Shown here: one piece after another, positions 21,345-38,624 of the stretch
Layout: each line of letters opens with the position of its first letter
How positions within the stretch are numbered: the stretch's first letter is position 1
Source of the DNA: Kaustia mangrovi
GTDB taxonomy: Bacteria > Pseudomonadota > Alphaproteobacteria > Rhizobiales > Im1
DNA: 64,000 bases
Reading direction: 5' to 3'
Assembly: GCF_015482775.1 (NCBI RefSeq)
Contig: NZ_CP058214.1
Span: forward strand, 1,878,272 to 1,942,271
Translations under genes and position numbers: made by a program
The notes under the pieces: model-generated
Told to the model about the DNA's origin: nothing
The model's input: only the letters and a program-made list of their open reading frames with translations
Database searches by the model: none

Positions 21345-22193
21345 ATGACATCCCGACGCATGATCGAGCGATGGCGCCCCTGGGCCTATGTCGGCCCGGC
21401 GCTCGTCTGGACGGTGGCGTTCTTCATCCTGCCGTTCCTCGTAATGGCCTGGGTGAGCCTCACCGTCCACGGCACCGGCGAAACGCTGAGCGCCGCCAAC
21501 TACGCGCAGTTCGTGCACAATGAGAGCTACTGGCGCGCGCTCGTCAACTCGCTGGAGGTGACGGCCATCGTCACCGCCGTCTCCATCCTGCTCGCCTATC
21601 CCTTCGCGTGGTTCCTCGCCGAGATCGTGCCGGAGCGCTGGCAGCGCCTCGGGCTGATGCTCGCCGTGCTGCCCTTCTGGACGTCCTATGTGGTGCGCTC
21701 CTATAGCTGGCTCCTGGTGCTCGCGGAGAACGGCGTCGTCAACAACGCGCTCACCGGCATCGGCCTGCTGTCCGACCCCGTCCAGATGGCGAATACGCGG
21801 TTTGCGACCGTCACGGGCTTCGTCCACTTCTTCGTGATGCTCTTGACGCTCACCATCTTCGCCAATCTGAAGCAGCTCTCGCCGAGCTACCGGAAGGCGG
21901 CCGCCGACCTCGGTGCGAACGGGGTCCAGATCTTCCGCCATGTGATCCTGCCGCTCACCCTTCCGGGCATCATGGTCGGCGCCTTCCTCACCTTCGTTCT
22001 GGCCATCGGCGACTACATCACCCCGCAGATCCTCGGCGGCAACAACGAGCTCTTGATGCCCCAGCTCATCATGATGCAGATCGGTCGGCGCGGCGATTTC
22101 CCGCTCGCCTCCGCGCTCGCGCTGATCCTGATGGCTGTGGTGACGCTCGCCTATTTCGCCTGCGCCCGCTGGCTCCGGATCGAGAGGGCATGA
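21345..22193 (+). CDS. ABC transporter permease, PotB-like
   Basis: The protein has 282 residues and about six membrane helices. The coupling loop is AAADLGANGVQIFRHVILPLTLPGI. The N terminus ALVWTVAFFILPFLVMAWVSL is typical of PotB. It forms the channel with the frameshifted permease that follows; its stop overlaps that gene's ATG. Confidence 0.9.
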   Translation: MTSRRMIERWRPWAYVGPALVWTVAFFILPFLVMAWVSLTVHGTGETLSAANYAQFVHNESYWRALVNSLEVTAIVTAVSILLAYPFAWFLAEIVPERWQRLGLMLAVLPFWTSYVVRSYSWLLVLAENGVVNNALTGIGLLSDPVQMANTRFATVTGFVHFFVMLLTLTIFANLKQLSPSYRKAAADLGANGVQIFRHVILPLTLPGIMVGAFLTFVLAIGDYITPQILGGNNELLMPQLIMMQIGRRGDFPLASALALILMAVVTLAYFACARWLRIERA

Positions 22194-22971
22194 TGAAGGC
22201 CCTGAAGATCCTCACAAGCGTCTACGCACTCGCCGTCTACGGCTTCATCTTTCTGCCGGTCGCCGTGCTGGTGCTGTTCTCGTTCCAGGCAAGCCTGTTC
22301 CCCGTGCCACCCTTCACCGGCCCGTCGCTGCGCTGGTACGAGGCCGTGCTGGGCGACCGAAGCCTGACGGCGGGGCTCGTCAATTCCGTTCTGGTCGCGA
22401 CCGTCTCCTCGCTCGTCGCGGTGACGCTGGGCTTCCTGTCGGCCTATGGCTTCGCCCGCTTCCGTCTGCCGGGTTCGGGCCTTCTGCGCGCGCTCGTCAC
22501 CGCCCCCTCATGGTGAGCTACCTCATCATCGGCATGGGGCTCCTCATCCTGTTCAACGCCGTCGGGCTGCCGAAATCGCTGCTCGCCGCCGGCATCGGAC
22601 ACGCGGTGATCAACTTGCCCCTGTGTTTTGCGATCGTCTATTCCCAGATGGGCGATCATCAGCTCAATGCCGAGCGCGCCGCCCGCGACCTCGGCGCGAG
22701 AAGCCGGCATGTGCTGGTCCTCATTCTCGTGCCCATGCTGTGGCCGGCCCTGTTCGCGAGCTTCTTCCTCGCCATGACCTTCTCGTGGGACGAGTTCGTG
22801 ATCGCCTTCCTTCTCACCCGCTTCGAGACCACCCTGCCAGTGGAGATCTGGGGTCTCCTGCGCTCCGGTCTGAACCCGAGGACCAACGCGGTCGGCTCGC
22901 TCGTCTTCGGCGTCTCCATCGTCCTTGTCCTGATCCTCGAGCTCGTCGTCTTCAGAAAGCGCCGCCCGTGA
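22190..22971 (+). pseudogene. ABC transporter permease, PotC-like, frameshifted
   Basis: ATG 22190 overlaps the stop of the PotB-like gene. The first frame codes SVYALAVYGFIFLPVAVLVL through LSAYGFARFRLP to GLLRALVTAP, then hits TGA at 22514-22516. The rest (MVSYLIIGMGLLILF through DLGARSRHVLVLILVPMLWP to the stop at 22971) continues one frame over. One more C in the C5 tract 22503-22507 gives the seamless ALVTAPLMVSYLIIG and a normal 260-residue permease. The downstream ATPase still overlaps in a GTGA. This suggests a sequence error or very recent mutation; if real, the importer would lack half its channel. Confidence 0.85.
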
Positions 22972-23981
22972 CCGAACCGCTCGTCGAAATCCAGTCCGTC
23001 TCCCACAGCTTCGGCCCGCACCGGGTGCTGGAGGCCATCTCGCTCGACATCGCGCCGGCAAGCTACACCGTGCTGCTCGGCCCCTCCGGCTCGGGCAAGA
23101 CGACGCTCCTCAATATCCTCGGCGGCTTCCTCACGCCCAGCGAGGGCCGCGTCCTCATTAAGGGGACGGACTGCACCGCGCTGGCCCCGGCGCGGCGCCC
23201 GACCACCACGGTCTTTCAGGACTATGCGCTGTTTCCGCATATGACCGTCGGTGCCAATGTCGCCTTCGGCCTGAGAATGCGCGGGGTGGGGCGCGGCGAG
23301 CGCCGGCGCCGGGCCCTGGAAACGCTGGAGATCGTCGGGCTCGACCATGTCGAGACCCGCAAGCCCCACGAGCTGTCGGGCGGCCAACGCCAGCGTGTCG
23401 CGCTCGCCCGCGCGCTGGTGGTCGAACCCGCCCTCCTGCTGCTCGACGAGCCGCTCGGCGCGCTCGACCTGAAGCTCCGCCGCCAGATGCAGGACGAGCT
23501 GAAGGCCATACAGAAGCGCGTCGGCACCGTCTTCGTCCATGTCACCCACGACCAGGAGGAAGCGATGGCGCTCGCCGATCTCTGCGTGGTGATGAGCGAG
23601 GGACATATCGAGGATATGGGTCCGCCCGAGCGCGTCTATCGCCGCCCGCGCACGCGCTTCACCGCCACCTTCATGGGCGAGAGCACCATCCTGCCGGCGG
23701 CGGCCGTCGCCTGTCCGGGCCTCGACCCGGCAGCCTCCCTCGTGGCCATCCGTCCGGAAAGCATCGGGCTCGGCGACACGCCGCCATCCCATGTCGCGCT
23801 CGGCTCCGGCACCGTCACCGACCTCGTCTTCCAGGGCGGCTTCAAGCGCGCGAGCGTCGCCGATCCGGCCGAGCCCGACCGCATCTACACCGTTCGCGTA
23901 CCCGTCACGCAGCCCCTTGCGGAAGGCGACACGGTGACGCTTCATTGCAGCCCTGACGAGATCATCCCGCTCAAGGAGTAA
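22968..23981 (+). CDS. ABC transporter ATP-binding protein, PotA-like
   Basis: The protein has 337 residues from GTG 22968, overlapping the permease stop (GTGA). Walker A is GPSGSGKTT, the Q-loop is FQDYALFPHM, the signature is LSGGQRQRVALARAL, Walker B is LLLLDEPLGALD, and the H-loop is VHVTHDQEEAM. A C-terminal TOBE-like domain follows (LVAIRPESIGLG). It is the energiser of importer operon 2. The frame open upstream from 22446 crosses the permease gene and is not coding. Confidence 0.92.
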   Translation: MTEPLVEIQSVSHSFGPHRVLEAISLDIAPASYTVLLGPSGSGKTTLLNILGGFLTPSEGRVLIKGTDCTALAPARRPTTTVFQDYALFPHMTVGANVAFGLRMRGVGRGERRRRALETLEIVGLDHVETRKPHELSGGQRQRVALARALVVEPALLLLDEPLGALDLKLRRQMQDELKAIQKRVGTVFVHVTHDQEEAMALADLCVVMSEGHIEDMGPPERVYRRPRTRFTATFMGESTILPAAAVACPGLDPAASLVAIRPESIGLGDTPPSHVALGSGTVTDLVFQGGFKRASVADPAEPDRIYTVRVPVTQPLAEGDTVTLHCSPDEIIPLKE

Positions 23982-26186: not shown

Positions 26187-27068
26187 TCAGCCCGCCGCGA
26201 TCTCGTCCCAGCCGGGCTGGGAGGCCTGGGCGCCCCGGCGCGTGCAGGCGAGCGCGGCGGCGCGATTGGCGAAGCTGAGCGAATCCGCCTCCGCCAGCCC
26301 GCGCTCGAGGCAGGCGCAATAAACGCCGACGAAGGTATCGCCCGCCGCCGTCGTGTCGACCGCCTCCACCGCATGCGCCGGCAGGCGCAGCTCCGTCCCG
26401 TCGTGATGATGGACGAGGCCTTGCGCGCCATAGGTCGCGACGACCCGCGTCCCCGTGCGGGATGCAAGGGCCGCCGGCGAGGCGTCGCCAAGCCCCGCGG
26501 AGGCGGCGATCTGGCGGAGCTCGATCTCGTTGACGATCAGGTCGTCCACGCAAGCCAGCAGGCCGTCCGGCACGGGCATGGCAGGCGCGGCATTCAGCAC
26601 CACGCGCAGGCCCGCCCGGTGCGCCCGCGCGGCGACCTCCGCCATCTCATCCATCGGCACTTCCTGCTGCAGGAGCAGGAGCGCGGCGCGCGCCAGCGTC
26701 TCATCGTCGAGATCGGACGCCTTGAGCTCGCGATTGGCGCCGGGCGACACGACGATGGTGCTGCCGCCTTCCGCATCGACCCAGATCGTGGCGCAGCCCG
26801 TGGGATGGGAAGCGGATCGCCCAACATGGCCGAGATCGACGCCCGCCGCCCTGAGGCAGGCGAGGGCCGGCTCGGCGAAGGCGTCGCCGCCGACCTTGCC
26901 GATGAGCTCCACATCGGCGCCCGCGAGCCGCGCGGCATGGGCCTGGTTCGCCCCCTTCCCGCCCGGCGACATGATGCAGTCGCCGCCGAGAACGGTTTCC
27001 CCCGGGGCCGGCATGCGCTCGACCGGAACCATGATGTCGAGATTGATGGAGCCGAAGACGACGATCAT
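26187..27068 (-). CDS. PfkB-family sugar kinase, ribokinase-like
   Basis: The protein has 293 residues. PfkB signature 1 is PGGKGANQAHAA (about 35-46), and signature 2 is DTTAAGDTFVG with the catalytic aspartate. FGSINLDIMVPVERMPAPGE is a ribokinase-type N terminus. It phosphorylates a furanose in the cytosol; ribose is the best guess because the preceding gene (6 bp away) is a nucleoside hydrolase that would release ribose. It is the last gene of the LacI-linked eight-gene operon. Confidence 0.88.
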   Translation of the reverse strand: MIVVFGSINLDIMVPVERMPAPGETVLGGDCIMSPGGKGANQAHAARLAGADVELIGKVGGDAFAEPALACLRAAGVDLGHVGRSASHPTGCATIWVDAEGGSTIVVSPGANRELKASDLDDETLARAALLLLQQEVPMDEMAEVAARAHRAGLRVVLNAAPAMPVPDGLLACVDDLIVNEIELRQIAASAGLGDASPAALASRTGTRVVATYGAQGLVHHHDGTELRLPAHAVEAVDTTAAGDTFVGVYCACLERGLAEADSLSFANRAAALACTRRGAQASQPGWDEIAAG

Positions 27069-27074
27069 GGGACC

Positions 27075-27971
27075 CTAGGCAAGCTTGGCGATTCGGCCGG
27101 CGATGAGGCGAAGGAGGCGGTCCGGATCGAGCCCGGTGACGACGCGGTGGCTGGTGCCGTTCTCCTCGAAGCGGCAGGTCCCCTCGCGCGCCGGATCGCG
27201 CCATTCGACATGGACCTGCCCCTCCCGTCCGGAAAAGATCTCAGGATCGAGAAGGGCGGCCACGGTGCAGGCGTCATGCACGAAACGCCCGCCGGCGGCG
27301 GTGACGTCGAGCATGGCAGCAGCGGCCTCCGCCACGGGCGTGTCCGTCTGCCGGAGCGCTTCGGCGAGCTCTGCGGCGATATTCGCCTGGCGCGTCACAT
27401 CGAGCCCGAACAGCGAGATCGGCGCGCCGCTCTCGAGCACGATATGGGCGGCCGCCGGATCGGTGCCGAAATTGAATTCCGCCGGCGCGCCCTCCGTCGG
27501 AAACACCTCGCCGCCCATGATGTGGAGAGCACGAAGCCGGCCGGCGAGGCGGGGTTCCCGCGTCATGGCCAGCGCCACGTTACTCAGGGGGCCGATGGCG
27601 CAGAGCGTGACGGTCCCGGGCTCGGCCGACATCACGGTATCGGCGATGAAATCCGCGCCATGGACCGGCGACGGCGTCGTCCCGGGAGCCGGCAGGCCCG
27701 TGTCGCCCATGCCGTCGCGCCCGTGATAGTCGCTTTCGGGCCGCGCCGCGGCCATGAGCGGGCGGGCGAGCCCGGCATGGACCGGGATCTCTGCGCGCCC
27801 GGCAAGCTCCAGGAGGCGCAACGCATTCGCCGTCGTCTTCTCAAGCGGCTTGTTGCCGGCGACCGTCGAGATACCGGCAAGCGCGATCTCCTCGGGCGCA
27901 GCGAGCGCGAGCAGGATCGCGATGGCATCGTCGATGCCGGGATCGCAGTCGATGACGAGGGGCGCGGTCAC
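27075..27971 (-). CDS. inosine/uridine-preferring nucleoside hydrolase family protein
   Basis: The protein has 298 residues. The start is taken as GTG 27971, overlapping the previous stop (GTGA); a GTG at 27983 is the alternative. The calcium and ribose site IDCDPGIDDAIAI sits at the N terminus (about residues 6-18), and the family landmarks ALGP-type LCAIGPLSNVALA, IMGGEV and FGTDPAAAHIVL follow, with LFGLDVTR late. It cleaves N-glycosidic bonds of ribonucleosides to base plus ribose. The next gene is a ribokinase-like kinase. The base specificity is not evident from motifs. Confidence 0.88.
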   Translation of the reverse strand: MTAPLVIDCDPGIDDAIAILLALAAPEEIALAGISTVAGNKPLEKTTANALRLLELAGRAEIPVHAGLARPLMAAARPESDYHGRDGMGDTGLPAPGTTPSPVHGADFIADTVMSAEPGTVTLCAIGPLSNVALAMTREPRLAGRLRALHIMGGEVFPTEGAPAEFNFGTDPAAAHIVLESGAPISLFGLDVTRQANIAAELAEALRQTDTPVAEAAAAMLDVTAAGGRFVHDACTVAALLDPEIFSGREGQVHVEWRDPAREGTCRFEENGTSHRVVTGLDPDRLLRLIAGRIAKLA

Positions 27972-29788
27972 AGCGTGCCCCACAGATCGGGCCCGCGCTC
28001 TTCGGCGACCATCAGATAGGGCAGCAGAGCTCCCCAGCTATAGAAGGGGTCGGTGTCGGCCTGGTCGAGGATCGCACCGGTCTCGGCATTGTAGTTCTCG
28101 CCGCACAGCCGCTCGCGCCAGCCGGCCGCGAACAGGCGCCAGCCCATCTCGGCCAGCGCATGCGCCTCCGCATCCCGCCCGCAGCGCTTGAGCCCCTGAT
28201 AGGTCCAGAAGTTGAGCGGCCCCCAGATGCGCCCGCGCCAATAGACGTTGTCCGTATAGGCCGGATCGTCGCGCGTGACCGAGGGAAGGCCCGGCACGCC
28301 GCCGAATTTCCCGCGCGGGGTCAGATAGCCCGAGACGAGCGCCTCGACCTGCTCCGCGCTCGCCGCGCCGGCGGCCATGGGGAAGAACGAGGTCGGCGCG
28401 AGCGGTTCGACAAACCCGCCATCGACGAGGCGATTGGCGAACACCTTGCGGCTCCCGTCCCAGAGCCTGTCGGAGATCGTCTCCCGGTGGCGGGCGGAGC
28501 GCCCGGCAAGTCGCGCCGCATCGTCCCCGCGGCCGAGCTCGGCGGCCATCCGCGCCAGCATTTCGCCATCGAGCGCGAGCAGGCTGTTGAGCCCGACATC
28601 GAAGGACATCAAAAGCCCGGTCTCCTCGTCGAAGGGGGCGGGATCGTGGACCGGCATGTTGTCCATGGAGGACTCGTCCTTGGCGGCGAGCTTGGTGCCC
28701 TTGTAGAGCCCGTCGCCCACATCGAGGCTCGTGCCGTAGACGACGAGGCCCGCGCCGTCGGGCTCGCGCCGGCGCCACCACCAGTCGTGATTGCGCAGGA
28801 GGCCCGGAAAGGCCCAGTCGAGAAGTCCACGGTCGCGGGAGGCGAGATAGAGCGACCAGACGACGAAGGAGGCGATTGGCGGCTGGGAACGGTCCAGCCA
28901 GGCGTCGTTGCCGGTCACCAGGCACGGGAAGTTGCCCTCCTCCGTCTGCCAGGCGAAGACGGCCTCCAGGTTCTGGCGCGCCTTGCCCTCGTCGAACGGC
29001 CCCCACAGGAGGGCGTTGTAGAGGATATCGTCCAGCCAGACGCCGAAACCGCCGAATTTGTGCGTGTTCCAGAAGCGTGTGAGAACGGTGTAGGGCCGGT
29101 CGTTGATGGCGTCGTGGACATGGTTCCACGAGATCACGTCGTGAACCGCCTGGAGGGGCGAGGCCTCCTCCGGCAGGGGGGCAATCTCATCCTCCGGCAT
29201 GGATGGCCGCTCCGGCACCGTCCCGTCGATGCGCAGGTCGAGGCGCATGGACGGGCCCTCCTCCAGATTGAAGCGCAGCGCCGCGAAGGTGCCCTCCACC
29301 CCGCGCGAGGCGAGATAGAAATAGCCCTTCTCGCGGAACTCCGCCTCAAGCGCCTCCAGGCCGTCATGGAACGTCGCCATGAGCGGCTTCTTCGCCGCCC
29401 GGATGGCGAGCCCCGGCCCGCCGGTCAGGACACCGGTCTCCGGATCGTAGGCGAGGCGGGTGCCCGCCGGGCCCGAGACGCAGAGCACCACCCAGAAACG
29501 CAGGCCCCACTCGCCGGTCTCGCGCGCCTGCCAGTCGACGGTCACCCCGCCATCGTCCCCGAAGCGGTAGCGCCAGTCGATGACCGTGTCCTCGTGGCGC
29601 GTACGGAAGGTGATCTCGCGCCCGTCCATCGTGCGCACGCCGAACCGGATATCGAGGCTCGGCGGGAGATGCGTCACGGCGTTGGCGCGCGCGGAATAGA
29701 GAACCGGCGTCAGTGTCAGGCCCGTGTCGGGATGGGTCAGTTCCACCGGCTTGTCCGGCGACCACGTCCCCCAGCTCGTCGTCGTCAT
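27968..29788 (-). CDS. GH63/MGH1-like (alpha/alpha)6-barrel glycoside hydrolase
   Basis: The protein has 606 residues. ATG 29788 is chosen because it overlaps the previous stop (ATGA); ATG 29800 is the alternative. An N-terminal beta-rich region (1-200) precedes a helical barrel with GGFGVWLDDIL (246-256), KDESSMDNMP (370-379; Asp376 fits the general acid), WGPLNFWTYQG (522-532) and GENYNAETG (563-571; Glu564 fits the base), then FYSWGALLPYL. These match clan GH-G/GH63-like enzymes such as mannosylglycerate hydrolase and YgjK. There is no signal peptide, so the glycoside must be imported first. The substrate is unknown. It sits between an isochorismatase-like and a nucleoside hydrolase gene. 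Confidence 0.8.
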   Translation of the reverse strand: MTTTSWGTWSPDKPVELTHPDTGLTLTPVLYSARANAVTHLPPSLDIRFGVRTMDGREITFRTRHEDTVIDWRYRFGDDGGVTVDWQARETGEWGLRFWVVLCVSGPAGTRLAYDPETGVLTGGPGLAIRAAKKPLMATFHDGLEALEAEFREKGYFYLASRGVEGTFAALRFNLEEGPSMRLDLRIDGTVPERPSMPEDEIAPLPEEASPLQAVHDVISWNHVHDAINDRPYTVLTRFWNTHKFGGFGVWLDDILYNALLWGPFDEGKARQNLEAVFAWQTEEGNFPCLVTGNDAWLDRSQPPIASFVVWSLYLASRDRGLLDWAFPGLLRNHDWWWRRREPDGAGLVVYGTSLDVGDGLYKGTKLAAKDESSMDNMPVHDPAPFDEETGLLMSFDVGLNSLLALDGEMLARMAAELGRGDDAARLAGRSARHRETISDRLWDGSRKVFANRLVDGGFVEPLAPTSFFPMAAGAASAEQVEALVSGYLTPRGKFGGVPGLPSVTRDDPAYTDNVYWRGRIWGPLNFWTYQGLKRCGRDAEAHALAEMGWRLFAAGWRERLCGENYNAETGAILDQADTDPFYSWGALLPYLMVAEERGPDLWGTL

Positions 29789-30393
29789 GGGGTCGTCCAT
29801 TCAGCGAGGATATCGTCGAGAGATGCCAGCTCGACCTGTTGGTCGAAGCGCGGATAGACCGCATCGAGACAGGCCCGGTGCCCGGCCATGTCCGAGCTTG
29901 CGACCGCTTCGCGCGGAACGATCACGCGATAGCCGAGATCGACGGCGGACAGCACGGAGGCGAGCACGCAGACATCCGTCTCCACGCCGCAGAAGACGAG
30001 TGCGGAGGGCTGGAGCCCGGCGACGGCGGCAGCGAAACCGTCGCTGTCGAAGGCGTCATGGGTCCATTTGTCGAAGATGCGGCCCGGCCCTGCATAAGGC
30101 GCGAGATCCTCGTGGAGATCGAGGACGTCGGCGCCGGCAGCCTCCTGCGTCACGCCTGTCCAGTGGCGGTAGTAGCGCTGCCACGTTCCGGTCGCCGCCT
30201 CCGGCGTCCTGGCCGTGATGAAGCGCGTGAACCAGCTCCGATCCGGCCGCGCGGCGACGAGAGACCGGATGGCGGGCACGATTTCAAGTCCCGTCGGGCA
30301 GAACCAGTCGCCGGGCTCCAGGAAGATGCGCTGCATGTCGACGCAGACGACGAGCGCGCTGTCGCCGAGCGGACCGAAGGGCAGGCGGCTCAT
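29785..30393 (-). CDS. isochorismatase-family cysteine hydrolase
   Basis: The protein has 202 residues from ATG 30393, overlapping the ATPase stop (ATGA). The catalytic triad is in place: Asp19 in VVCVDMQRIF, Lys109 in IFDKWTHDAF, and Cys142 in FCGVETDVCVLAS with its preceding cis-peptide. The family includes nicotinamidase, N-carbamoylsarcosine amidase, ureidoacrylate hydrolase and isochorismatase; residues here do not choose among them. In this operon an amide-cleaving role on the aglycone or base is reasonable. The open frame to 30636 overlaps the ATPase and is not coding. Confidence 0.88.
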   Translation of the reverse strand: MSRLPFGPLGDSALVVCVDMQRIFLEPGDWFCPTGLEIVPAIRSLVAARPDRSWFTRFITARTPEAATGTWQRYYRHWTGVTQEAAGADVLDLHEDLAPYAGPGRIFDKWTHDAFDSDGFAAAVAGLQPSALVFCGVETDVCVLASVLSAVDLGYRVIVPREAVASSDMAGHRACLDAVYPRFDQQVELASLDDILAEWTTP

Positions 30394-31448
30394 GGCGTCA
30401 CCACCACCGTGTCGGCAGGCCGCCAGACGAGCCGCACCCGCGCACCGGCCTCGAAGGGCTCCGCCCCCCGGTTCTGGGCGATGACTTTCACCGTCTGGTC
30501 CTGCCAGGAGGCGAGATAGGTCATGCTGTTGCCGGCGAAGATCGCCTCCGAGACGGTCGCGTCGAGCATGTTGCCCTCGCCGTCCGCCGGCCCGTCGGCG
30601 GGCACGACCTCGATACGCTCGGGGCGCACCGCGCACACGACCTCCTCGTCCGCCTTGCCGGGCGCGTCCGCGGTGCGCATCCGCGATCCGTCGGCCAGCA
30701 CCACGCCGTCGCCATTCGCCCGGCCCCTGAACAGATTGGCGTCGCCGAGAAAGGTCGCCGCGAAGGCGCTCTCCGGCCGGTCGTAGATTTCCTTCGGCGC
30801 CCCCTCCTGGACGAGCCGGCCATCGCGCAGAACGCCGATGCGGTCGCTCAGGGTGAGCGCCTCCTCCTGGTCGTGGGTGACGAAGATGGTAGTGATGCCG
30901 ATCTCGCGCTGGATGCGCTTGAGCTCCACCTGCATGCCGACACGCAGCGCCTTGTCGAGGGCCGACAGCGGTTCGTCGAGCAGCAGCACGCGCGGATGGA
31001 ATACAATGGCGCGCGCGAGCGCCACGCGCTGGCGCTGGCCGCCGGAGAGCTGGTGCGGCTTGCGGTCGTCGAGGCCGGTGAGGCGGACGAGTTCCAGCGC
31101 CTCGCCGACACGCCGTACGATCTCCGCGCGCGCCGTGTTGCGGACCATGAGCCCGAAGGCGACATTGTCGAACACGGACATGTTGGGGAACAGCGCGTAG
31201 CTCTGGAACATCATGCCGATATCGCGCTTCTCCGCCGGCAGGGCGCCGACCGGCTCACCGCCGATCTCGATCTCGCCGCTGTCCGGGAAGTCGAAACCGG
31301 CGATCAGCCGAAGAAGCGTCGTCTTGCCCGAGCCGGAGGGCCCGAGCAGCCCGTAGAAGCCGCCATCGGCGAATTCGATGGAGATGTCGTCCAGCGCCTT
31401 GAAGCTGCCGAACAGCTTGGAGACGCCACGCACGGATACGGAGGCCAT
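30390..31448 (-). CDS. ABC transporter ATP-binding protein, PotA-like
   Basis: The protein has 352 residues. Walker A is GPSGSGKTT, the Q-loop is FQSYALFPNM, the signature is LSGGQRQRVALARAI, Walker B is LLLDEPLSALD, and the H-loop is FVTHDQEEAL, with a C-terminal TOBE domain (CAVRPERIEV). It energises importer operon 3. Its ATG overlaps the permease stop by one base (TGATG), and its own stop overlaps the isochorismatase start. Confidence 0.92.
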   Translation of the reverse strand: MASVSVRGVSKLFGSFKALDDISIEFADGGFYGLLGPSGSGKTTLLRLIAGFDFPDSGEIEIGGEPVGALPAEKRDIGMMFQSYALFPNMSVFDNVAFGLMVRNTARAEIVRRVGEALELVRLTGLDDRKPHQLSGGQRQRVALARAIVFHPRVLLLDEPLSALDKALRVGMQVELKRIQREIGITTIFVTHDQEEALTLSDRIGVLRDGRLVQEGAPKEIYDRPESAFAATFLGDANLFRGRANGDGVVLADGSRMRTADAPGKADEEVVCAVRPERIEVVPADGPADGEGNMLDATVSEAIFAGNSMTYLASWQDQTVKVIAQNRGAEPFEAGARVRLVWRPADTVVVTP

Positions 31449-32236
31449 CAGCGCTCTCCCCCGAAACGGTAATACCGGGCCACGCCGACCAGAAGTGTCA
31501 TGGAGAAGACGATGACGATGGTCGAGATGGCGTTGATCTCGGGCGTGAAGCCCTTGCGGATGGCCGTGTAGATCTCAACCGGCAGGGTGGAGACGCCCGG
31601 CACGGCCAGGAAATAGGAGATGACGAACTGGTCGAAGGAGACCGCGAAGGCAAAGAGCGCGGCGGCGATGAAGCCCGGCGCGATGAACGGGAAGGTGACA
31701 TGGCGCACGACCTGTGCCGGAGAGGCGCCGAGCGAGCGCGCCGCCGCCTCCAGATCCGGGTCGAAGGCCTTGAGCCGTGCGGAGACGACGATAATCACAT
31801 AGGGCAGCGCCAGCGCCACATGGCCGAGCACCATGGCATGGAGCCCGCGCCCGATGCCCGCCCAGAAGAAGAACAGCAGCATGGCCGTTCCCGTGATCAG
31901 CCACGGGATCGCGATGGGCGGGAACAGCAGGAGCTGGAGCACCTGCTTGCCGCGGAACTCGTAGCGGAAGAAGGCGATGGCCGCCGCGGTGCCGAGCGTG
32001 CTCGCGATCGCGGTGGTGACGACCGCGACGACGATGCTGTTGAACCCGGCGTTCAGCAGCTTCGAATTGCCGGACAGCGCCTCGTACCAGCGCAGCGACC
32101 AGTCGATGGGTAGCGTGTAGAACTGCGAGGCGTTGAACGACATCACCGCCATCACGAGGATGGGGATGTAGAGGAACATGAGGACCAGAGCGAGATAGAC
32201 CCGCCCCAATGTCGCCAGGCCGATCCGCCGCCTCAT
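31448..32236 (-). CDS. ABC transporter permease, PotC-like
   Basis: The protein has 262 residues from ATG 32236, overlapping the PotB stop. The helix-rich sequence has coupling loop AARSLGASPAQVVRHVTFPFIAPGF, and the N terminus FLYIPILVMAVMSFNAS is the PotC type. The open frame extends to 32503 through PotB sequence and is rejected. Confidence 0.9.
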   Translation of the reverse strand: MRRRIGLATLGRVYLALVLMFLYIPILVMAVMSFNASQFYTLPIDWSLRWYEALSGNSKLLNAGFNSIVVAVVTTAIASTLGTAAAIAFFRYEFRGKQVLQLLLFPPIAIPWLITGTAMLLFFFWAGIGRGLHAMVLGHVALALPYVIIVVSARLKAFDPDLEAAARSLGASPAQVVRHVTFPFIAPGFIAAALFAFAVSFDQFVISYFLAVPGVSTLPVEIYTAIRKGFTPEINAISTIVIVFSMTLLVGVARYYRFGGER

Positions 32237-33126
32237 CGCGCAGCCCTCCTGAGGATCGGATGGAACGCGGCGAAGATGATCAGCACACAGCCCAGCAGGA
32301 TGAAGGAGAGCGCCGCGCCGAGCGGCCAGTTGAAGACGGCGGTGAACTGGTCCTCGATCACGGTGCCGATGAAGGTGCCGTTGCGTCCGCCGAGGATGCG
32401 CGGCTCCATGAAGGAGCCGATGACCGGCACGAAGATCAGCACCGCGCCCGCGACGATCCCCGGCATGGACAGCGGCAGGAGGATGCGCGTGAGGATCGTC
32501 CACCGGCTCGCCCCCAGCGACCGCGCCGCCTCGATCAGGTCGTCGTCTATGGCCTGCAACGAGATGTAGCAGGTGAGGATCATGTAGGGCAGGTAGGAAT
32601 GGACGAGCCCGATCACGATGGCCGGATAGGTGAACATGAGATCGAGCCCGCCGAAGCCCGGGATCACCGCATTCAGGAACTGCTCAAGGATGCCGTTGCC
32701 GCGCAGCACCATGGTCCAGGAGAAGATGCGCACCAGCGCGTTGCTCCAGAACGGGATGATGACGAGCAGGAACATGGCCTCGCGCCAGCGCCCCTTGACG
32801 ACCTTCGCCAGCACCAGCGCGCAGGGAAAGCCGAACAGGAAGCAGTAGAACGAGACTTCCGCGCCGAGCCGCAGCGAGCGCAGCATGAGGCTCTGGTAGA
32901 AGGCTTTGTCGAAGAAGGCCTGATAGTTCTCTAGCGTGAACTGCCCGACCCGGCCGGCAATGGGCGCCTCGCTCAGGAGGCTGAAATAGAGCATGGCCGA
33001 GATCGGCAGGAACACCGTGACGGCGAGCCACAGATAGGCCGGCCCGGTCAGGACCGCGATCCGCCGCGCCTCGCCGCGCCGGGCCTTCGCGCTGCTGCCA
33101 GCCTCTGTACTCGCCGCTACCGTCAT
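32233..33126 (-). CDS. ABC transporter permease, PotB-like
   Basis: The protein has 297 residues with a short charged N-terminal tail, then about six helices (AYLWLAVTVFLPISAMLYFSL) and the coupling loop AARSLGASRWTILTRILLPLSMPGI. It is the channel partner of the gene at 31448. It follows the binding-protein gene after a 104-bp gap carrying a perfect hairpin. Confidence 0.9.
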   Translation of the reverse strand: MTVAASTEAGSSAKARRGEARRIAVLTGPAYLWLAVTVFLPISAMLYFSLLSEAPIAGRVGQFTLENYQAFFDKAFYQSLMLRSLRLGAEVSFYCFLFGFPCALVLAKVVKGRWREAMFLLVIIPFWSNALVRIFSWTMVLRGNGILEQFLNAVIPGFGGLDLMFTYPAIVIGLVHSYLPYMILTCYISLQAIDDDLIEAARSLGASRWTILTRILLPLSMPGIVAGAVLIFVPVIGSFMEPRILGGRNGTFIGTVIEDQFTAVFNWPLGAALSFILLGCVLIIFAAFHPILRRAAR

Positions 33127-33185
33127 GCCGCGCTCAGCGCCTCTGCTTCGGGGAGTGCCCCGTCACGGTTCGACTCCGCGTTTCC

Positions 33186-33216
33186 CGTCATGGCCGGGCC
33201 TGACCCGGCCATGACG
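33186..33216 (-). repeat. perfect palindromic hairpin (REP-like) between binding-protein and permease genes (operon 3)
   Basis: CGTCATGGCCGGG and CCCGGCCATGACG pair perfectly over 13 bp around a five-base loop (33199-33203). The GTCATGGCCGGG...CCCGGCCATGAC form is a repeat type seen widely in GC-rich bacteria. It lies in the gap after the binding-protein stop. There is no T-tract. Confidence 0.75.
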
Positions 33217-33230
33217 ACGAGGACATGCCC

Positions 33231-34295
33231 TCAGTTCTGGTAGTAGGTCTTCGTCTCCTGCCAGAGCTCGAGCATCTTCTGGCGGACCGTGTCGTCTATG
33301 GGCCCCATGAACTGGAGCTTGCCCGACTCTGCCGCCTTGCCCATGACCTGCCGGTTGAAGGCGTCCTCGGCAAGCTCGCCGATGGCCTTGGTGTTAGCGG
33401 ACGCCGGCGCACCCACATCGGTGTCCCACTTCACGTAGAACTCCGGATCGATCATCCAGTCGATGAACTGCTTCGCCGCCTCCTTGTGCGGCGCGTCCTT
33501 CGCGATGGACAGCCCGTCGAGCCAGCCGATGGCACCCTCCTTCGGGATGACGAACTCGACGGGCAGGCCGAAATTGTTCTTCGAACGCGAAGCCGAGCCG
33601 CTCCAGTAGGTGGACAGCTCGAACTCGCCCGAGGACATGTACTGGTTCCACTCGTTCTCCGAGGTCCAGAAGGTGCGGATCTGCGGCTTCAACGCCCGGA
33701 GCTTCTCGCGGATCGCATCGAAGTCGGAGGGGTCGTTGATCTTCTGCCCGGTGGCGATGGCCGCGATCTGCACCGCCTCCACCGCGTCGTCGCGCCAGCC
33801 GACCTTGCCCTCGTGCTTCGGCGACCACAGCTCCTCGATGGAGGTCGGCGCGGTCTCGAAATCGTTGGTGTTGATGGCATAGGACGTCACGCCCCAGACC
33901 CAGGCGACGCCATAGGTCTTCCCGTCGATCACCAGATAGGGGCTGTTGCGCAGATCCGGCGCCAGATCCTCCACATTCTCCATGGTGGAGGTGTCGATCG
34001 GCTCGATCAGGCCCTCCTCCGCCGCCTGCGGCGTGTAGGCGCTGTTGATGAGCACGACATCATAGGTGCCCGGATTGGTCCGGAGCTTGGTCAGCATCTC
34101 CTGCTCGGAGTTGAAATAGTCGTGCACGACCTCGTGGCCGGTCTTCTTCTCGAAGGCCTCGACCGACCAATCCTCGTCAGTGCCGTAGCCCTGCCAGTTG
34201 AGCACGCGGATCGTGTCGGCTGAGGCCGCGCTCCCCCAGCCCATGGCCATTGCGAGCCCCATGGCTGCGGCCGTCGAAAGCAGTGTCCGTGTCAT
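33231..34295 (-). CDS. periplasmic solute-binding protein, PotD/PotF-like, of ABC operon 3
   Basis: The protein has 354 residues from ATG 34295 with GAGGGAGGGG upstream; the open frame to 34412 lacks a ribosome-binding site. A signal peptide covers about residues 1-26 (LSTAAAMGLAMAMGWGSAASA). The mature part begins DTIRVLNWQGYGTDE and has SPYLVIDGKTYGVAWVWGV and YWSGSASRSKNN, typical of spermidine/putrescine-type binding proteins. It is the first gene of an eight-gene operon opposite LacI, so its ligand is probably the substrate of the glycosidase and nucleoside hydrolase downstream rather than a plain polyamine. Confidence 0.88.
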   Translation of the reverse strand: MTRTLLSTAAAMGLAMAMGWGSAASADTIRVLNWQGYGTDEDWSVEAFEKKTGHEVVHDYFNSEQEMLTKLRTNPGTYDVVLINSAYTPQAAEEGLIEPIDTSTMENVEDLAPDLRNSPYLVIDGKTYGVAWVWGVTSYAINTNDFETAPTSIEELWSPKHEGKVGWRDDAVEAVQIAAIATGQKINDPSDFDAIREKLRALKPQIRTFWTSENEWNQYMSSGEFELSTYWSGSASRSKNNFGLPVEFVIPKEGAIGWLDGLSIAKDAPHKEAAKQFIDWMIDPEFYVKWDTDVGAPASANTKAIGELAEDAFNRQVMGKAAESGKLQFMGPIDDTVRQKMLELWQETKTYYQN

Positions 34296-34419: not shown

Positions 34420-34435
34420 GGTTAAACGTTTAACC
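34420..34435. promoter_or_regulatory. LacI-type operator, perfect 16-bp palindrome
   Basis: GGTTAAACGTTTAACC is a perfect palindrome with the central CG typical of LacI/GalR-family operators. It lies in the divergent gap between the importer operon (start 34295) and lacI (start 34528). This makes it the most probable binding site of that LacI protein for both directions. Confidence 0.75.
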
Positions 34436-34470: not shown

Positions 34471-34488
34471 TTGTTTCTACAGAAACAA
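34471..34488. promoter_or_regulatory. second inverted repeat next to the lacI start
   Basis: TTGTTTCTACAGAAACAA has two perfect 8-base arms around AC and directly abuts an in-frame ATG at 34489. It differs in sequence from the 34420 operator. It may bind another regulator, or act as a hairpin at the 5' end of the lacI mRNA. Confidence 0.55.
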
Positions 34489-34527: not shown

Positions 34528-35493
34528 ATGGCAACCATCACCGAAATCGCACGTCTCGCACGGGTGTCGACCGCCACGGTCTCCCATGTGCTCAACAGGA
34601 CCAAGCCGGTCAGCGCGAAAACGCGCCGGATCGTTGAGGAGATCGCGCGCGAGCTCGGCTATTCGCCGAGCCGGTCGGCGCGCTCGCTCAAGACCGGCCG
34701 GAGCGCCACCATCGGGCTGATCGCGCCCGACCTCACCAATCCGTTCTTCCCGGCCATCGCGCAGGCCGTGGAGGCGAAGGCGCGCGAGCTCGGCCACGGG
34801 CTCATCATCGTCGACTGCCACAACGACCCGGACGAGGAGCAGGCCGCCTTCGCACTCGTCGGGGAATACCGCGTCGACGGGGCGATCTGGATTCCGGTGC
34901 GCGAGGATCTGGAGCGGATCCGTCTGCCCGCCCCCGTCGTCACGCTCGACCGGCCCATCGAGGGCATAGACGGCGTGACCGCAGCCCATCGCGAGGGCGG
35001 GCGCATGGTCGGCCGGGAAATCGCTGCGCGCGGGCATGGAAGCGTCGGCATATTGCGCGGTCCCGCCGCCCATTACAGCGCGCGCGAACGCTATGAGGGC
35101 CTGAGAGAGGGCCTTGGCGATGCGGTCCCGATCGGCTGGACCGTCGAGGTCCCCTTCTCGCTCGATCTGGGCGAAGAGGCCGAGGCGGCCATTCTGGACC
35201 GGCCGGTCTCGTGCATCGCCTGCGCCAACGACCAGGTCGCCATCCGCACGCTCCAGCTGCTCGCCCGGGCGGGCCGCGCCGTGCCGGACGAGGTGTCGGT
35301 GATCGGCTTCGACGATATTGCCTGGTCGCACTTCATCCACCCGCCGCTCACCACGGTGCGCCAGCCCTACAGGGCGCTCGGCACGGCGGCGGTCGAGCTG
35401 CTCTTCAGGCGCATCGCGGAGCCGGACGCCCCGCGCGAGCTGAAGGCGCTCCCCGTCACCTGGATCGAGCGGGAAAGTCTGCGCGCCATTTGA
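34528..35493 (+). CDS. LacI-family transcriptional regulator
   Basis: The protein has 321 residues. ATG 34528 is chosen because LacI proteins start a few residues before the helix-turn-helix (ITEIARLARVSTATVSHVLN, residues 4-23); ATG 34489 would add 13 proline-rich residues. The hinge RSARSLKTGRSATIGLIAPD leads to a sugar-binding-type effector domain (NPFFPAIAQAV, GIDGVTAAHREGGRM, CANDQVAIRTLQ, IGFDDIAWS). It probably represses the divergent eight-gene operon in the absence of a sugar-containing inducer. No good ribosome-binding site is visible before either start. Confidence 0.88.
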   Translation: MATITEIARLARVSTATVSHVLNRTKPVSAKTRRIVEEIARELGYSPSRSARSLKTGRSATIGLIAPDLTNPFFPAIAQAVEAKARELGHGLIIVDCHNDPDEEQAAFALVGEYRVDGAIWIPVREDLERIRLPAPVVTLDRPIEGIDGVTAAHREGGRMVGREIAARGHGSVGILRGPAAHYSARERYEGLREGLGDAVPIGWTVEVPFSLDLGEEAEAAILDRPVSCIACANDQVAIRTLQLLARAGRAVPDEVSVIGFDDIAWSHFIHPPLTTVRQPYRALGTAAVELLFRRIAEPDAPRELKALPVTWIERESLRAI

Positions 35494-36367: not shown

Positions 36368-37216
36368 TCATCCCTTCGGCGCGGCGTTGCAGATACCCTT
36401 CACCGAGCGCATCACCGCCTCGGGTGCGAAGACGCGGTCGAGCCAGCCATCCCGGAAGATCTCCGCCTTCGCGTTCTCGATGGCCAGCAGCGCCCCGTCG
36501 GAGAACTGCCCCGGAAAGGCCTCGAACAGGATGGCGAGCTCGACATTGAGATGGCCGAGCATGAAATCCATCGCCGCCTGGTGCGGCACGCCGCGCCGGG
36601 CCGCCTCGTCGGTCGCCTCGCGCAGCGCGGTGACGAGCGTCGCCGCCACGGTCTCCGACAGGGCCGGCTCGAGAATCGCCATCTGCTCCACGCTCACGCG
36701 GTGGGAGCGCATGACCGGCTTGTAGATCGCCCGCGCGATCGCCTCGCATGGCGCATAGTGCTCCTCCGGTCCCTGCATGAGCGCGCAGACGATATGCTGT
36801 CTCGCATGCTCGCCGCCGAAATAGTCGGTCTTGGCCTCCATCCTCGTCTCCTCGTTGAAGATTGGCGGATGGCAGGGATGGGTGACGAAATAGGTGATAT
36901 CGGCGCGCTCCGGCAGCTCGCCCGCATGGGGCGCGGCGGCATCGAGCATGATGACCGCGCAGCCGCCCGGTATCTTGTCGACGAACCCCCGGGCGATCTT
37001 GCCAATGGCCGCATCCGGCACCGCCATCAGCACGACATCGGCCCGGGCCAGTGCCTCGTCCGGATCCGCGCAGGTCACGCCGAGCGCGTCGGCGAGGCGC
37101 TCGCGGCCGGCCTGCGATATCTCCACATGGTCCACCTCATAGGGCTCGTCCGCGAGATTGCGGGCAAGCCTCAGCCCCATCTTTCCGCCCGCGCCGAGCA
37201 ATGCGATCCTGGTCAT
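36368..37216 (-). CDS. apnO: D-apionate oxidoisomerase-like NAD-binding dehydrogenase (ApnO-like)
   Basis: The protein has 282 residues with ribosome-binding site GGGAGGAGAT. The Rossmann motif IALLGAGGKMGLRLARNL is at residues 4-21; a phosphogluconate-dehydrogenase-like C-terminal domain follows (THPCHPPIFNEE, EQMAILEPALSETVAATL). The assignment relies on context: it is co-directional with a four-carbon acid-sugar kinase and a RuBisCO-like protein, the trio described for D-apionate breakdown. There ApnO oxidises and isomerises D-apionate to 3-oxo-isoapionate. It is last in the trio, 31 bp after the kinase. If the context misleads, it is simply a sugar-acid dehydrogenase. Confidence 0.7.
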   Translation of the reverse strand: MTRIALLGAGGKMGLRLARNLADEPYEVDHVEISQAGRERLADALGVTCADPDEALARADVVLMAVPDAAIGKIARGFVDKIPGGCAVIMLDAAAPHAGELPERADITYFVTHPCHPPIFNEETRMEAKTDYFGGEHARQHIVCALMQGPEEHYAPCEAIARAIYKPVMRSHRVSVEQMAILEPALSETVAATLVTALREATDEAARRGVPHQAAMDFMLGHLNVELAILFEAFPGQFSDGALLAIENAKAEIFRDGWLDRVFAPEAVMRSVKGICNAAPKG

Positions 37217-37247
37217 GCGAGATCTCCTCCCTTGTCCCTCGTGTATC

Positions 37248-38624
37248 TCAAGTTCCACCTCCGGCACGGACGCGCCCGAAATAGTCCGGCCCGCCGATCT
37301 GGCCACCCTTGAAGGCGATCTGGAGGCCCTCCAGCCGGCGCTCCTTAGCATGCGCGAGACACAGGGGCGCGCCCGGCGCAACGGGCACCATCGCCTCCAG
37401 CGCATAGAGGCCGAGCGCCCCGCCGGCCCGGCCCGCCGTGTCGCCGCCGCTGACCACGACGCGCCCGAGCCCCGCCTGCCGGACGACGCGGGAGAGAATG
37501 TCGCCGAGCGCCCGCCCGATCCGGTCCTGCCCCTCCGCCGGGTCGATGCCGAGCGCACGGACCTTGTCCGCGAACCGGACGATCCGGGGGTCGTCGGGTC
37601 CGCGTGCGGTGTGGACGAGCGGGCTTCGGCCGTCTTCCAGCGCCGCCAATGCGCACGAGACGGTATCGGCGATCTCCTCCTGCCGCGTCGCCGGGTCGGC
37701 AAGGCGCGTCGCGTCGGGCGCGATGTCGGCAAAACCGTTCTTGAAGCTCCAGCCGATCTGGTCCGCGGTCACCGGCGAGCAGCTCCCCGAGACGGCCGCG
37801 ATCCGGTCCACCGGCCCGAGCCCGGCGCGCGCGGTGGCCTGCGGCAGGAGCCCGGCCCGGCGCCAATGGGCGATCAGCGCATATTGAAGGCCGGAGGAGG
37901 AGGCGGAAAAGAGGCCGTCGCCCCGCCCCTGCCAGACGAGCGCGCCCGCCGCGGCGAGCGTCTCCTCGTCCATGACATCGACCAGAACGGCCCGCGCGCC
38001 GTCCGCGAGCACGGTTTCGAGGCGGTCCGCACCACGGCCCTCCTTCAGGGCGACGAAATCGACGAGCCCGATGGGGAGGTCGGTCTGGTCGGCGAGATGG
38101 CGGCTGAGATCGGCCTCGCCCATGGGCGTCACCGGATGGCGCGCCATGGTCGGGTGGCGGTCGAGCCGGTAGCCCTCGCCATCGACGGTGGCGAACAGGT
38201 TGCCGAACGCCTGATAGCGCCCGAGCCGGGGCGCGGCGACGATCATGGGCGACCAGCGGCAGGGCCGCGCCCGGAGCCCCAGCTCCAGCGCCTTGCCGAT
38301 GGAGCCGACCGTTGGCGAGGAATCGAAGGTGGAGCACACCTTGTAGTGCAGGATCGGCGCGCCGAGGCCGGCGAGCGTGGCAAATATCTCCGGCAGATGG
38401 CGCTCCATCCAGCCGGGCGTGCGGCTGCGCGCGGTGCCGGCGATGCCGATGGCCCGGTAGCCGGCAAAGGCCGACAGCCGCTCCGGCGTTGGCGGTTCCA
38501 GGAACAGGACGGCCGGCAGCCCGTTGAACGCGAAGACCTCCATCGCATCGGTGGAGCCGGTGAAGTCATCGCCATGGAAGGCGAGAAGACAGCCTTGGGC
38601 CAGCGTCTCGCGCGCCACCGTCAT
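37248..38624 (-). CDS. oiaK: four-carbon acid-sugar kinase family protein (3-oxo-isoapionate kinase-like)
   Basis: The protein has 458 residues. The two-domain fold of the former DUF1537 family is shown by LAFHGDDFTGSTDAMEVF (about 13-30), HYKVCSTFDSSPTVGSIG and, in the C-terminal nucleotide-binding domain, SGSCSPVTADQI, VVSGGDTAGRAG and GGQIGGPDYF. Family members phosphorylate threonate, erythronate or 3-oxo-isoapionate. The partner RuBisCO-like gene overlaps its start (ATGA at 38621-38624), which favours the 3-oxo-isoapionate role (4-phosphate formation). Confidence 0.78.
   Translation of the reverse strand: MTVARETLAQGCLLAFHGDDFTGSTDAMEVFAFNGLPAVLFLEPPTPERLSAFAGYRAIGIAGTARSRTPGWMERHLPEIFATLAGLGAPILHYKVCSTFDSSPTVGSIGKALELGLRARPCRWSPMIVAAPRLGRYQAFGNLFATVDGEGYRLDRHPTMARHPVTPMGEADLSRHLADQTDLPIGLVDFVALKEGRGADRLETVLADGARAVLVDVMDEETLAAAGALVWQGRGDGLFSASSSGLQYALIAHWRRAGLLPQATARAGLGPVDRIAAVSGSCSPVTADQIGWSFKNGFADIAPDATRLADPATRQEEIADTVSCALAALEDGRSPLVHTARGPDDPRIVRFADKVRALGIDPAEGQDRIGRALGDILSRVVRQAGLGRVVVSGGDTAGRAGGALGLYALEAMVPVAPGAPLCLAHAKERRLEGLQIAFKGGQIGGPDYFGRVRAGGGT

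Follow-up and report, generated by a model that had tools for sequence, protein, structure and literature searches.

Plants convert excess nicotinate into N-glycosides; they make the N-glucoside, with an N-pentoside and an N-rhamnoside as tentative identifications (PMC6776627). In a recent report nicotine biosynthesis proceeds through nicotinate N-glucoside as an intermediate, a compound that was not a substrate for the plant beta-glucosidase NicGH (PMC13184244). Use of nicotinate N-glycosides by soil or root bacteria was not found in the literature searched. Nicotinate breakdown is encoded in nic clusters of the NicA/B/C/D/E/F/X/R type and, in Azorhizobium and Bradyrhizobium, in a reductive cluster running via THON, described with Hnr (6-hydroxynicotinate reductase), first-step genes and two conserved unknowns (PMC3511419). 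Among nucleoside hydrolases, URH1p cleaves nicotinamide riboside besides uridine (PMC11241417).

The window analysed here, a stretch of 64,000 nucleotides from Kaustia mangrovi, carries eight genes on the minus strand between 26187 and 34295 (Table 1), in the order binding protein (SBP), PotB, PotC, PotA, isochorismatase, glycosidase (GH), nucleoside hydrolase and ribokinase. The coordinates bear out the compact layout described in the first-pass annotation: read from the sequence, five of the seven junctions are 1- or 4-bp overlaps, one is a 6-bp gap and one a 104-bp gap. The catalytic residues that it had noted for all four enzymes are likewise present, as judged by alignment for the GH and the isochorismatase and from motifs, by eye, for the nucleoside hydrolase and the kinase; signal peptides were looked for by visual inspection alone. 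None of the eight proteins reaches an NCBIfam equivalog cut-off, counting the best 25 families where a protein matched many. We propose that the operon serves to scavenge N-glycosylated pyridines of the nicotinate/nicotinamide family, freeing pyridine and sugar, and rate this reading just short of an even chance.

Table 1. Features of the operon and its upstream region in the window.
Feature	Position	Strand	Evidence	Junction with preceding gene
SBP, PotD-like fold, periplasmic, 354 aa	33231..34295	-	Pfam SBP_bac_8, AlphaFold/Foldseek	
ABC permease, PotB-like	32233..33126	-	Pfam BPD_transp_1	104-bp gap
ABC permease, PotC-like	31448..32236	-	Pfam BPD_transp_1	4-bp overlap
ABC ATPase, PotA-like	30390..31448	-	Pfam ABC_tran+TOBE, TIGR01187	1-bp overlap at 31448
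Isochorismatase-fold cysteine hydrolase	29785..30393	-	PF00857, triad D19-K109-C142	4-bp overlap
MGH1-like/GH63-type glycosidase, 606 aa, module core	27968..29788	-	PF22422 + Trehalase	4-bp overlap, ATG start
Nucleoside hydrolase	27075..27971	-	IU_nuc_hydro PF01156	4-bp overlap, GTG start
PfkB kinase, ribokinase-like	26187..27068	-	PF00294	6-bp gap
Divergent LacI-family regulator	34528..35493	+	Pfam LacI, Peripla_BP_3	
16-bp perfect palindrome GGTTAAACGTTTAACC, candidate LacI-family operator	34420..34435		identical copy in L031	

The importer resembles the PotABCD/MotA-type systems for polyamines and opines. The AlphaFold model of the SBP (pLDDT 90.0) has PotD structures as its top Foldseek matches, and PotA, at 367.1 bits, lies above the cut-off of 355.6 for the potA subfamily TIGR01187. 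The window proteins nevertheless fall under the PotB, PotC and PotD equivalog cut-offs, the SBP scoring 159 bits against 582 for PotD, and PotA, PotB and PotC differ from those systems in being tied to a glycosidase, with importer and GH together in 64 of the 80 named GH loci that form our count base, distant taxa included and some loci truncated by contig ends. Residues W34, D169, D170, W231, W258 and D260 of the SBP are invariant in 14/14 sequences; all but D169 we take to be polyamine cage positions of PotD. The glutamate at chain residue 13 of PotD, presumably PotD E36, is replaced by G36.

The GH matches the Pfam family MGH1-like_GH (PF22422, 158.1 bits) as well as Trehalase, and its model (pLDDT 80.6) has YgjK, a GH63 enzyme, as top Foldseek match. 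Asp254 and Glu564 align with YgjK Asp324 and Glu727, the two positions altered by mutation in PDB entries 5ca3 and 3w7w/5gw7. Fold and both acidic residues place the enzyme in the GH63 type with YgjK and the mannosylglycerate/glucosylglycerate hydrolases, although identity to YgjK in the fold alignment is only about 15%, and the NCBIfam scores of 88.1 bits (cut-off 625) and 42.1 bits (cut-off 550) separate it from alpha-glucosidase and glucosylglycerate hydrolase, respectively. To our knowledge GH63-type enzymes act on alpha-O-glycosides. The nicotinate N-glucoside of plants is a beta-glucoside.

The isochorismatase carries a triad, Asp19, Lys109 and Cys142, that is invariant in 13/13 sequences, and may possibly be an amidase. 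Classical nicotinamidase (PncA) combines such a D-K-C triad with a DxHPxxH metal motif, which the alignment shows to be absent here, setting the window protein apart from PncA. It is unlikely to be the only nicotinamidase, as PncA-type matches occur in all 18 genomes with the GH, 15 of them over the cut-off, including one in the host, separate from the operon and with one in-frame TGA inside the matched stretch. Identity with the maleamate amidase NicF is ruled out, since both are separate genes in loci L024, L026, L027 and L028. In L046 and L049 the isochorismatase homologue directly adjoins NicAB.

The nucleoside hydrolase (IU_nuc_hydro, 263 bits) has the DxDPGxDD motif of its family as DCDPGIDD, by eye, and thus belongs with URH1p, whose activity on nicotinamide riboside it is only predicted to share. 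The kinase has a DTTAAGD motif, again by eye, and ribokinases as best PDB matches; at 257.9 bits it falls below the cut-off of 299.65 for the ribokinase equivalog TIGR02152.

Is the eight-gene set a chance assembly? All eight genes in the window order, with the divergent LacI gene and the palindrome, occur in L031 (the same as L056, an uncultured Tepidamorphus), and L030 has the eight in the same order but without the LacI gene. The same eight families are present, rearranged, in L036/L085, L037 and L059. The set is more than a chance assembly because importer and GH recur so widely and two relatives share the full order; the co-occurrence in relatives that had been set beforehand as the test of the operon is there. 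Among other neighbours in the window's clade of the GH tree, L029 has GntR and gluconolactonase-like genes, and in L065, L066 and L068 the GH is followed by an ORF of 631 aa, which in L065 is a TPP enzyme. Two further genes of the Rhizobium loci, for a carbohydrate-binding protein and a GH3, are not universal parts, being found in 32/80 and 21/80 loci with neither matched in the window; that binding protein in L026 had no Pfam or NCBIfam match. The neighbouring apiose-type OiaX/OiaK was set aside as a module part, with no match shown in the 80 GH loci.

The clearest pattern around the core concerns nicotinate. Of the 80 loci, 29 have one or more nic genes no further than about 10 kb from the GH, and 28 have two or more. 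Seven plasmid records, chosen from 40 listed of 87 with the GH and mostly from rows showing an annotated gene, each carry a nicotinate gene in the stretch covered. In five plasmids (two Rhizobium, Shinella, Pararhizobium and Phyllobacterium) GH, SBP, PotBCA and isochorismatase are contiguous with NicA/B/C/D/E-like genes and MarR. The Nic names are those we presume for the relatives' genes; in L026, NicC matches the 6-hydroxynicotinate 3-monooxygenase of PDB 5eow (E 4.9e-182) and NicX the 2,5-dihydroxypyridine dioxygenase of 7cn3 (E 7.6e-97). In Pleomorphomonas a gene annotated as 6-hydroxynicotinate reductase lies 9-10 kb from SBP and GH, G087 holds Hnr, NicAB, isochorismatase, importer, GH and SBP inside about 21 kb, and in G120 the gene directly upstream of the SBP is NAPRT-like. 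By comparison the window operon comprises uptake and deglycosylation genes only; no Nic gene was matched inside the window, neither NicAB nor an accompanying NicC or Hnr.

The association extends to whole genomes. Among 397 genomes of the host's order, NicB or the Hnr homologue occurs in 17/18 with the GH against 78/379 without (p=1.2e-10), and by genus, the one means by which kinship was handled, in 12/13 against 30/128 (p=1.4e-6); Hnr itself is common (89/397). The host has an Hnr homologue (72%) beside genes for FAD, 2Fe-2S and Mo-cofactor hydroxylase components, UPF0280 and AA_synth, a composition like that of the Azorhizobium/Bradyrhizobium cluster (PMC3511419). This cluster, with a putative role in nicotinate breakdown, lies about 1.35 Mb from the operon and is followed by a binding-protein gene of its own. 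The Mo hydroxylase appears as two overlapping frames, where the relative L144 has a single 928-aa gene. True NicB and NicC were not found in the host genome. A PF04095 search found no NAPRTase in the host, which nevertheless has a divergent NAPRT-like gene. That the module mainly serves NAD salvage is a side possibility, as NAPRT-like genes are not clearly enriched (5/18 with the GH, 46/379 without, p=0.067) and the host has NadA.

Import and deglycosylation of sugar-linked vitamin B3 is suggested because many relatives have genes for nicotinate breakdown next to the core genes or elsewhere in the genome. A cationic N-glycosylpyridinium would enter through the PotD-type binding protein and PotABC. 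In the cytosol the MGH1-like glycosidase would take a hexose or similar sugar off one class of conjugate, while N-ribosides, of nicotinate or nicotinamide, would be cut by the nucleoside hydrolase and the freed pentose phosphorylated by the ribokinase-like PfkB enzyme. The cysteine hydrolase may act on an amide, which could be the carboxamide group of a nicotinamide compound. Nicotinate could then enter the reductive 6-hydroxynicotinate pathway, through the Hnr-type cluster of the host, or salvage by the nicotinate phosphoribosyltransferase-like protein.

The operon is probably controlled by the product of the divergent LacI-family gene, with GGTTAAACGTTTAACC as its probable operator. A LacI homologue, 66% identical, has the same position in L031/L056, and L031 has the identical 16-bp palindrome at 4464-4479, between that gene and the SBP. 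The window and L031 each have a single copy of the 12-bp palindrome core; neither it nor the LacI gene was found in the covered stretch of L030. A divergent LacI gene with a conserved putative operator suggests a LacI-regulated operon.

The first-pass annotation had the enzymes act in series on one imported N-riboside that also bears a further sugar, such as a modified nucleoside with a glycosyl group: removal of the hexose by the GH, cleavage of the N-ribosyl bond by the nucleoside hydrolase, phosphorylation of ribose by the kinase and cleavage of an amide of the base by the cysteine hydrolase. That the enzymes share one operon, kept in order or rearranged in the relatives described, is in keeping with such a pathway. 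The wider loci speak against it: the nucleoside hydrolase is present in 3/80, a window-type kinase in 14/80, and in 6/80 a pair of ADP-ribosylglycohydrolase and PfkB kinase takes the slot of the nucleoside hydrolase, to which the ADP-ribosylglycohydrolase is non-homologous. Because most loci, some of them truncated by contig ends, thus have GH and importer without the riboside pair, and with nicotinate genes as recurrent neighbours, the data agree better with several glycosides being cleaved in parallel, and we regard serial opening as decidedly unlikely. The nicotinamide-riboside-like compounds also named as candidates have gained genomic support from the nicotinate genes beside the GH and in the same genomes.

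General or modified-nucleoside salvage, of cytokinin ribosides or tRNA-derived nucleosides for example, would make the nicotinate link mainly a feature of the Rhizobium-type GH branch. The nucleoside hydrolase is indeed closest to uridine/cytidine-type enzymes, 30 of the 31 nic-labelled rows of the GH tree sit in a branch separate from the window clade, which has a nearby nic gene in 1/20 rows (the window included, some contigs being short), and several members of the clade belong to genera that we take to be marine. The clade includes Halomonas L063, in which a gene matching the Mo-cofactor part of NicB (58% over 59% of the length) precedes the SBP by about 2.8 kb, an interval that holds PfkB, ADP-ribosylglycohydrolase and GntR genes. 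This gene and the Hnr of the host count against nucleoside salvage, as does the lack of recurrent purine or pyrimidine catabolic genes among the few annotated neighbours per locus, although L043 has a cytosine-deaminase-family gene at a distance of about 6 kb from its GH; we judge such salvage unlikely. Also quite unlikely is an importer for polyamines, guanidino compounds or opines to which unrelated sugar hydrolases were added, with the nicotinate link due to shared gene-rich catabolic islands. PotD is the best match of the SBP (E 3e-43), fold and most presumed cage residues are retained, and L030, one of the three closest relatives, has class-V aminotransferase and arginase-family genes after the kinase on the same strand; yet the arginase-family gene is confined to this locus among annotated neighbours, and importer and GH stay joined across distant taxa. 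The scavenging of N-glycosylated pyridines has its own weak points. Nic genes are rare near the GH in the window clade, where the arginase-family, aminotransferase, TPP-enzyme, GntR, gluconolactonase-like and PrpF genes do not point to nicotinate. The Hnr of the host is distant from the operon, common in the order and next to a Mo hydroxylase in two frames, and true NicB and NicC are missing. The metal motif of nicotinamidase is absent from the isochorismatase, the linkage known for GH63-type substrates differs from that of the plant N-glucoside, and the SBP retains most presumed cage residues, so that polyamines may be ligands. In L058 (Granulosicoccus) PrpF and lyase genes lie upstream, and whether they might belong to a nicotinate pathway is ambiguous. 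The best matches of this PrpF are YbhH and oxalomesaconate isomerase; 3-methylitaconate isomerase matches more weakly.

It is conceivable, though we hold it somewhat less probable than not, that a widespread and so far unrecognised GH63-like (MGH1-like) clade cleaves the N-glycosidic bond of pyridinium glycosides, whereby bacteria would consume the nicotinate N-glycosides that plants form for storage or detoxification, together with nicotinamide and nicotinate ribosides, via a dedicated PotABCD-type importer. The gene neighbourhoods provide, in rhizobia and other proteobacteria, a concrete and testable substrate class for orphan GH63-like glycosidases, for PotD-like binding proteins that look like parts of polyamine importers, and for the isochorismatase-like hydrolase.

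Pfam and NCBIfam bear out the families that the first-pass annotation gave the eight genes, and its minus-strand layout is exact: five of the junctions overlap by 1 or 4 bp, and the other two are gaps of 6 and 104 bp. The window spans 1878272-1942271 of a 4.63-Mb single-contig genome. The 16-bp palindrome GGTTAAACGTTTAACC has an identical copy in locus L031, which also has a divergent LacI gene (66%), and the L030 stretch examined holds neither. The second palindrome, TTGTTTCTACAGAAACAA, is absent from the L031 intergenic stretch.

The GH is a 606-residue MGH1-like/GH63-type protein. Its predicted model (pLDDT 80.6) has YgjK as the nearest fold, and Asp254 and Glu564, both invariant in a 12-sequence alignment, align with YgjK Asp324 and Glu727, the residues changed in PDB mutants 5ca3 and 3w7w/5gw7 according to the entry titles. 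Known GH63 enzymes act on alpha-O-glycosides, which counts against the nicotinate reading. PotD is the fold nearest to the SBP model (pLDDT 90.0), whose conserved aromatic/acidic cage would suit a cation, pyridinium or polyamine alike. Cytidine/uridine-type enzymes are the closest matches of the nucleoside hydrolase; those of the kinase are ribokinases, with a score under the NCBIfam ribokinase equivalog cut-off. The cysteine hydrolase triad, Asp19-Lys109-Cys142, is invariant in 13 of 13 sequences, a comparison in which the enzyme is without a DxHPxxH motif.

The order was represented by 397 genomes drawn evenly from a larger group; 18 of them, counting the host, carry the GH. In the stretches examined around it in the other 17, homologues of PotA, PotB and PotC accompany it in 15, the exceptions (L040 and L042) having only the SBP, and an isochorismatase does so in ten. 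Among the best 80 of 565 confirmed GH loci, at identity thresholds that we set, 64 have all three importer genes, 58 the isochorismatase, 14 a window-type kinase and three the nucleoside hydrolase; these are lower bounds because several loci end at contig ends, and many of the 80 are near copies, some being the same contigs as among the 17. All eight genes keep their order in L031 (same contig as L056) and L030, and the eight families are rearranged in L036 (the same as L085), L037 and L059.

A GH match was present in 87 plasmid records, seven of which were examined. In five (Rhizobium tumorigenes, R. beringeri, Shinella, Pararhizobium and Phyllobacterium) the GH and an SBP-PotBCA-isochorismatase run are contiguous with a NicAB-type hydroxylase, NicC/D/E-like genes and a MarR gene, with NicF and NicX wherever the stretch extends to them. 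PotA in L024 and NicB and NicD in L028 align in two pieces, and of the nic genes the Mesorhizobium locus L022 has only NicA/NicB-like ones. NicC and NicX are identified by PDB matches to 6-hydroxynicotinate 3-monooxygenase (E 4.9e-182) and 2,5-dihydroxypyridine dioxygenase (E 7.6e-97); the remaining names are presumptive, drawn from gene order and similarity, and none of those genes reaches an NCBIfam equivalog cut-off among the best families listed. A second nicotinate enzyme, unrelated to the first, also lies near the GH. On Pleomorphomonas plasmid AP017627, the last of the seven records, the GH and SBP are 9-10 kb from a gene annotated as 6-hydroxynicotinate reductase (Hnr), the same sequence being present in genome G010. 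In genome G087, Hnr, importer, GH and SBP are together, NicAB is about 10 kb from PotA and an isochorismatase homologue directly follows NicB. At least one nic gene is found in 29, and at least two in 28, of the best 80 of 565 GH loci.

NicB (E <= 1e-250) is present in 33 and Hnr (E <= 1e-100) in 89 of the 397 genomes. One or other occurs in 17/18 genomes with the GH, G371 being the single exception, versus 78/379 without it (Fisher p=1.2e-10); with the host left out it is 16/17 (p=4.9e-10). Counted by genus, which removes kinship only partly, the figures are 12/13 versus 30/128 (p=1.4e-6). The association holds for NicB alone (7/18 versus 26/379, p=2.4e-4) and Hnr alone (14/18 versus 75/379, p=4.7e-7).

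True NicB and NicC were not found in the host genome, the best matches being partial or 34%. An Hnr homologue, at 72% to the Pleomorphomonas protein, lies about 1.35 Mb away from the operon; its neighbours are hydroxylase genes of the FAD, 2Fe-2S and Mo-cofactor kinds, a gene of UPF0280 type (PRK04334, which we take to be that family) and AA_synth-type genes. PMC3511419 describes an Azorhizobium/Bradyrhizobium nicotinate cluster in which Hnr (in the strain described there, 42% to the E. barkeri enzyme) is accompanied by genes for the first three steps, a putative transporter gene and two conserved genes of unknown function; we infer the last two to be of the UPF0280 and AA_synth types. The host 2Fe-2S/Mo-cofactor hydroxylase lies in two overlapping frames and is one 928-residue gene in the relative L144; a frameshift, a sequencing error or a natural split would account for this. 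Also found in the host are NadA, a PncA-type match that exceeds the cut-off and whose aligned stretch contains a single in-frame TGA, and a NAPRT-like gene missed by a Pfam PF04095 search. This divergent family occurs in 51 of the 397 genomes, in G120 directly upstream of the SBP.

Coordinates of features in the window, the host genome and related loci
Feature	Location	Strand	Remark
Palindrome TTGTTTCTACAGAAACAA	window 34471-34488		between operon and LacI gene
OiaX-like RuBisCO-like protein, OiaK-like kinase, PGDH_C-domain dehydrogenase	window 36368-39874	-	beside operon
Two adjacent heavy-metal P-type ATPases	window 45896-50839	-	
Further PotABC(D)-type importer sets	window 11149-14836, 20232-23837, 56983-60978		
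Host 2Fe-2S/Mo-cofactor hydroxylase	G000:C1 about 549700-552455 (L136:9701-12456)		beside Hnr
NAPRT-like gene	G000:C1:4625790-4626941		host
NAPRT-like gene	L037:3263-4603		relative
Class-V aminotransferase and arginase-family genes	L030:13549-15823	+	directly past kinase of a close relative
631-aa ORF	L065:11901-13796, L066:5130-7025, L068:7700-9595		after GH; three MAG loci grouping together in tree
ADP-ribosylglycohydrolase and PfkB kinase	L063:2701-5463, L064:3511-6196		
ADP-ribosylglycohydrolase and PfkB kinase	L081, L084, L089, L091		

The window's own clade counts against the nicotinate reading. No gene within the window points to nicotinate, and direct nic linkage is seen in one of 20 rows of its GH clade (a quick tree, long branches flagged), where the linked locus, L063, has only the Mo-cofactor part of NicB, 59% of its length. 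Other neighbours in the clade, which do not point to nicotinate, were counted on the same side. In L029 the upstream side carries GntR and gluconolactonase-like genes and the downstream side DUF4432, and in L058 PrpF and a lyase lie upstream; single genes scanned in L057, L059, L060, L069 and L070 gave ankyrin repeats, no family and three binding-protein families. The 631-residue ORF of L065 is a TPP (thiamine-pyrophosphate) enzyme, and the nicotinate reading leaves the aminotransferase and arginase-family genes of L030 unexplained. The OiaX/OiaK-like set would be a putative isoapionate/apiose-type catabolic cluster, with scores below the NCBIfam equivalog cut-offs (OiaX 466.1 of 700, OiaK 614.7 of 700). 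The three further importer sets, at 27-45% identity to the operon's importer proteins, bring the number in 64 kb to four; that at 56983-60978 has no SBP match.

An ADP-ribosylglycohydrolase-family N-ribosyl hydrolase with an adjacent PfkB kinase occurs in six of the best 80 of 565 GH loci (assigned by Pfam in L063 and L064, and by tblastn matches of 49-50% in the other four). Halomonas L063 and Ruegeria L064 are in the 20-row clade with the window; Labrys and L081 lie across the tree. The pair adjoins PotABCD-type importers, three of the six loci also having a GntR-type gene, and is, judged from sequence, a putative, uncharacterised N-riboside module in its own right. Within the 80, the nucleoside hydrolase is paired with a kinase in L056, L059 and L085; the window, L030 and L037 have this pair too. 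That one slot is filled by either of two non-homologous hydrolases, in both cases with a sugar kinase, speaks for an N-ribosyl bond as the one that would be cut. According to PMC11241417, URH1p, a nucleoside hydrolase of yeast, is about as efficient on nicotinamide riboside as on uridine, a precedent that makes such an assignment chemically reasonable. The serial scheme first proposed, a single imported glycosylated N-riboside opened stepwise by GH, nucleoside hydrolase, kinase and cysteine hydrolase, is not favoured because the GH and importer mostly occur without the riboside pair.

Six loci from acetic acid bacteria (Gluconobacter, Acetobacter and Komagataeibacter; L099, L106, L112, L114, L116 and L118) all carry the GH with a GH3 gene, and three (L099, L106 and L116) have nic genes. 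No PotABC importer is present within the stretches examined, which suggests that these bacteria use a different uptake route.

The enzyme families are already known, and the gene combination and proposed substrate are apparently new; a literature search in which few subscription papers were covered found no account of bacteria taking up or hydrolysing nicotinate glycosides, which is weak evidence of absence. PMC6776627 reports nicotinate N-glucoside in plants, with an N-pentoside and N-rhamnoside tentatively identified, and PMC13184244 gives the N-glucoside as an intermediate of nicotine biosynthesis. The Rhizobium loci are compatible with such plant conjugates as substrate. The window's GH clade includes the marine genera Ruegeria, Halomonas, Granulosicoccus and Pelagibius, and for this reason the sugar or its source may differ there from that of the Rhizobium loci.
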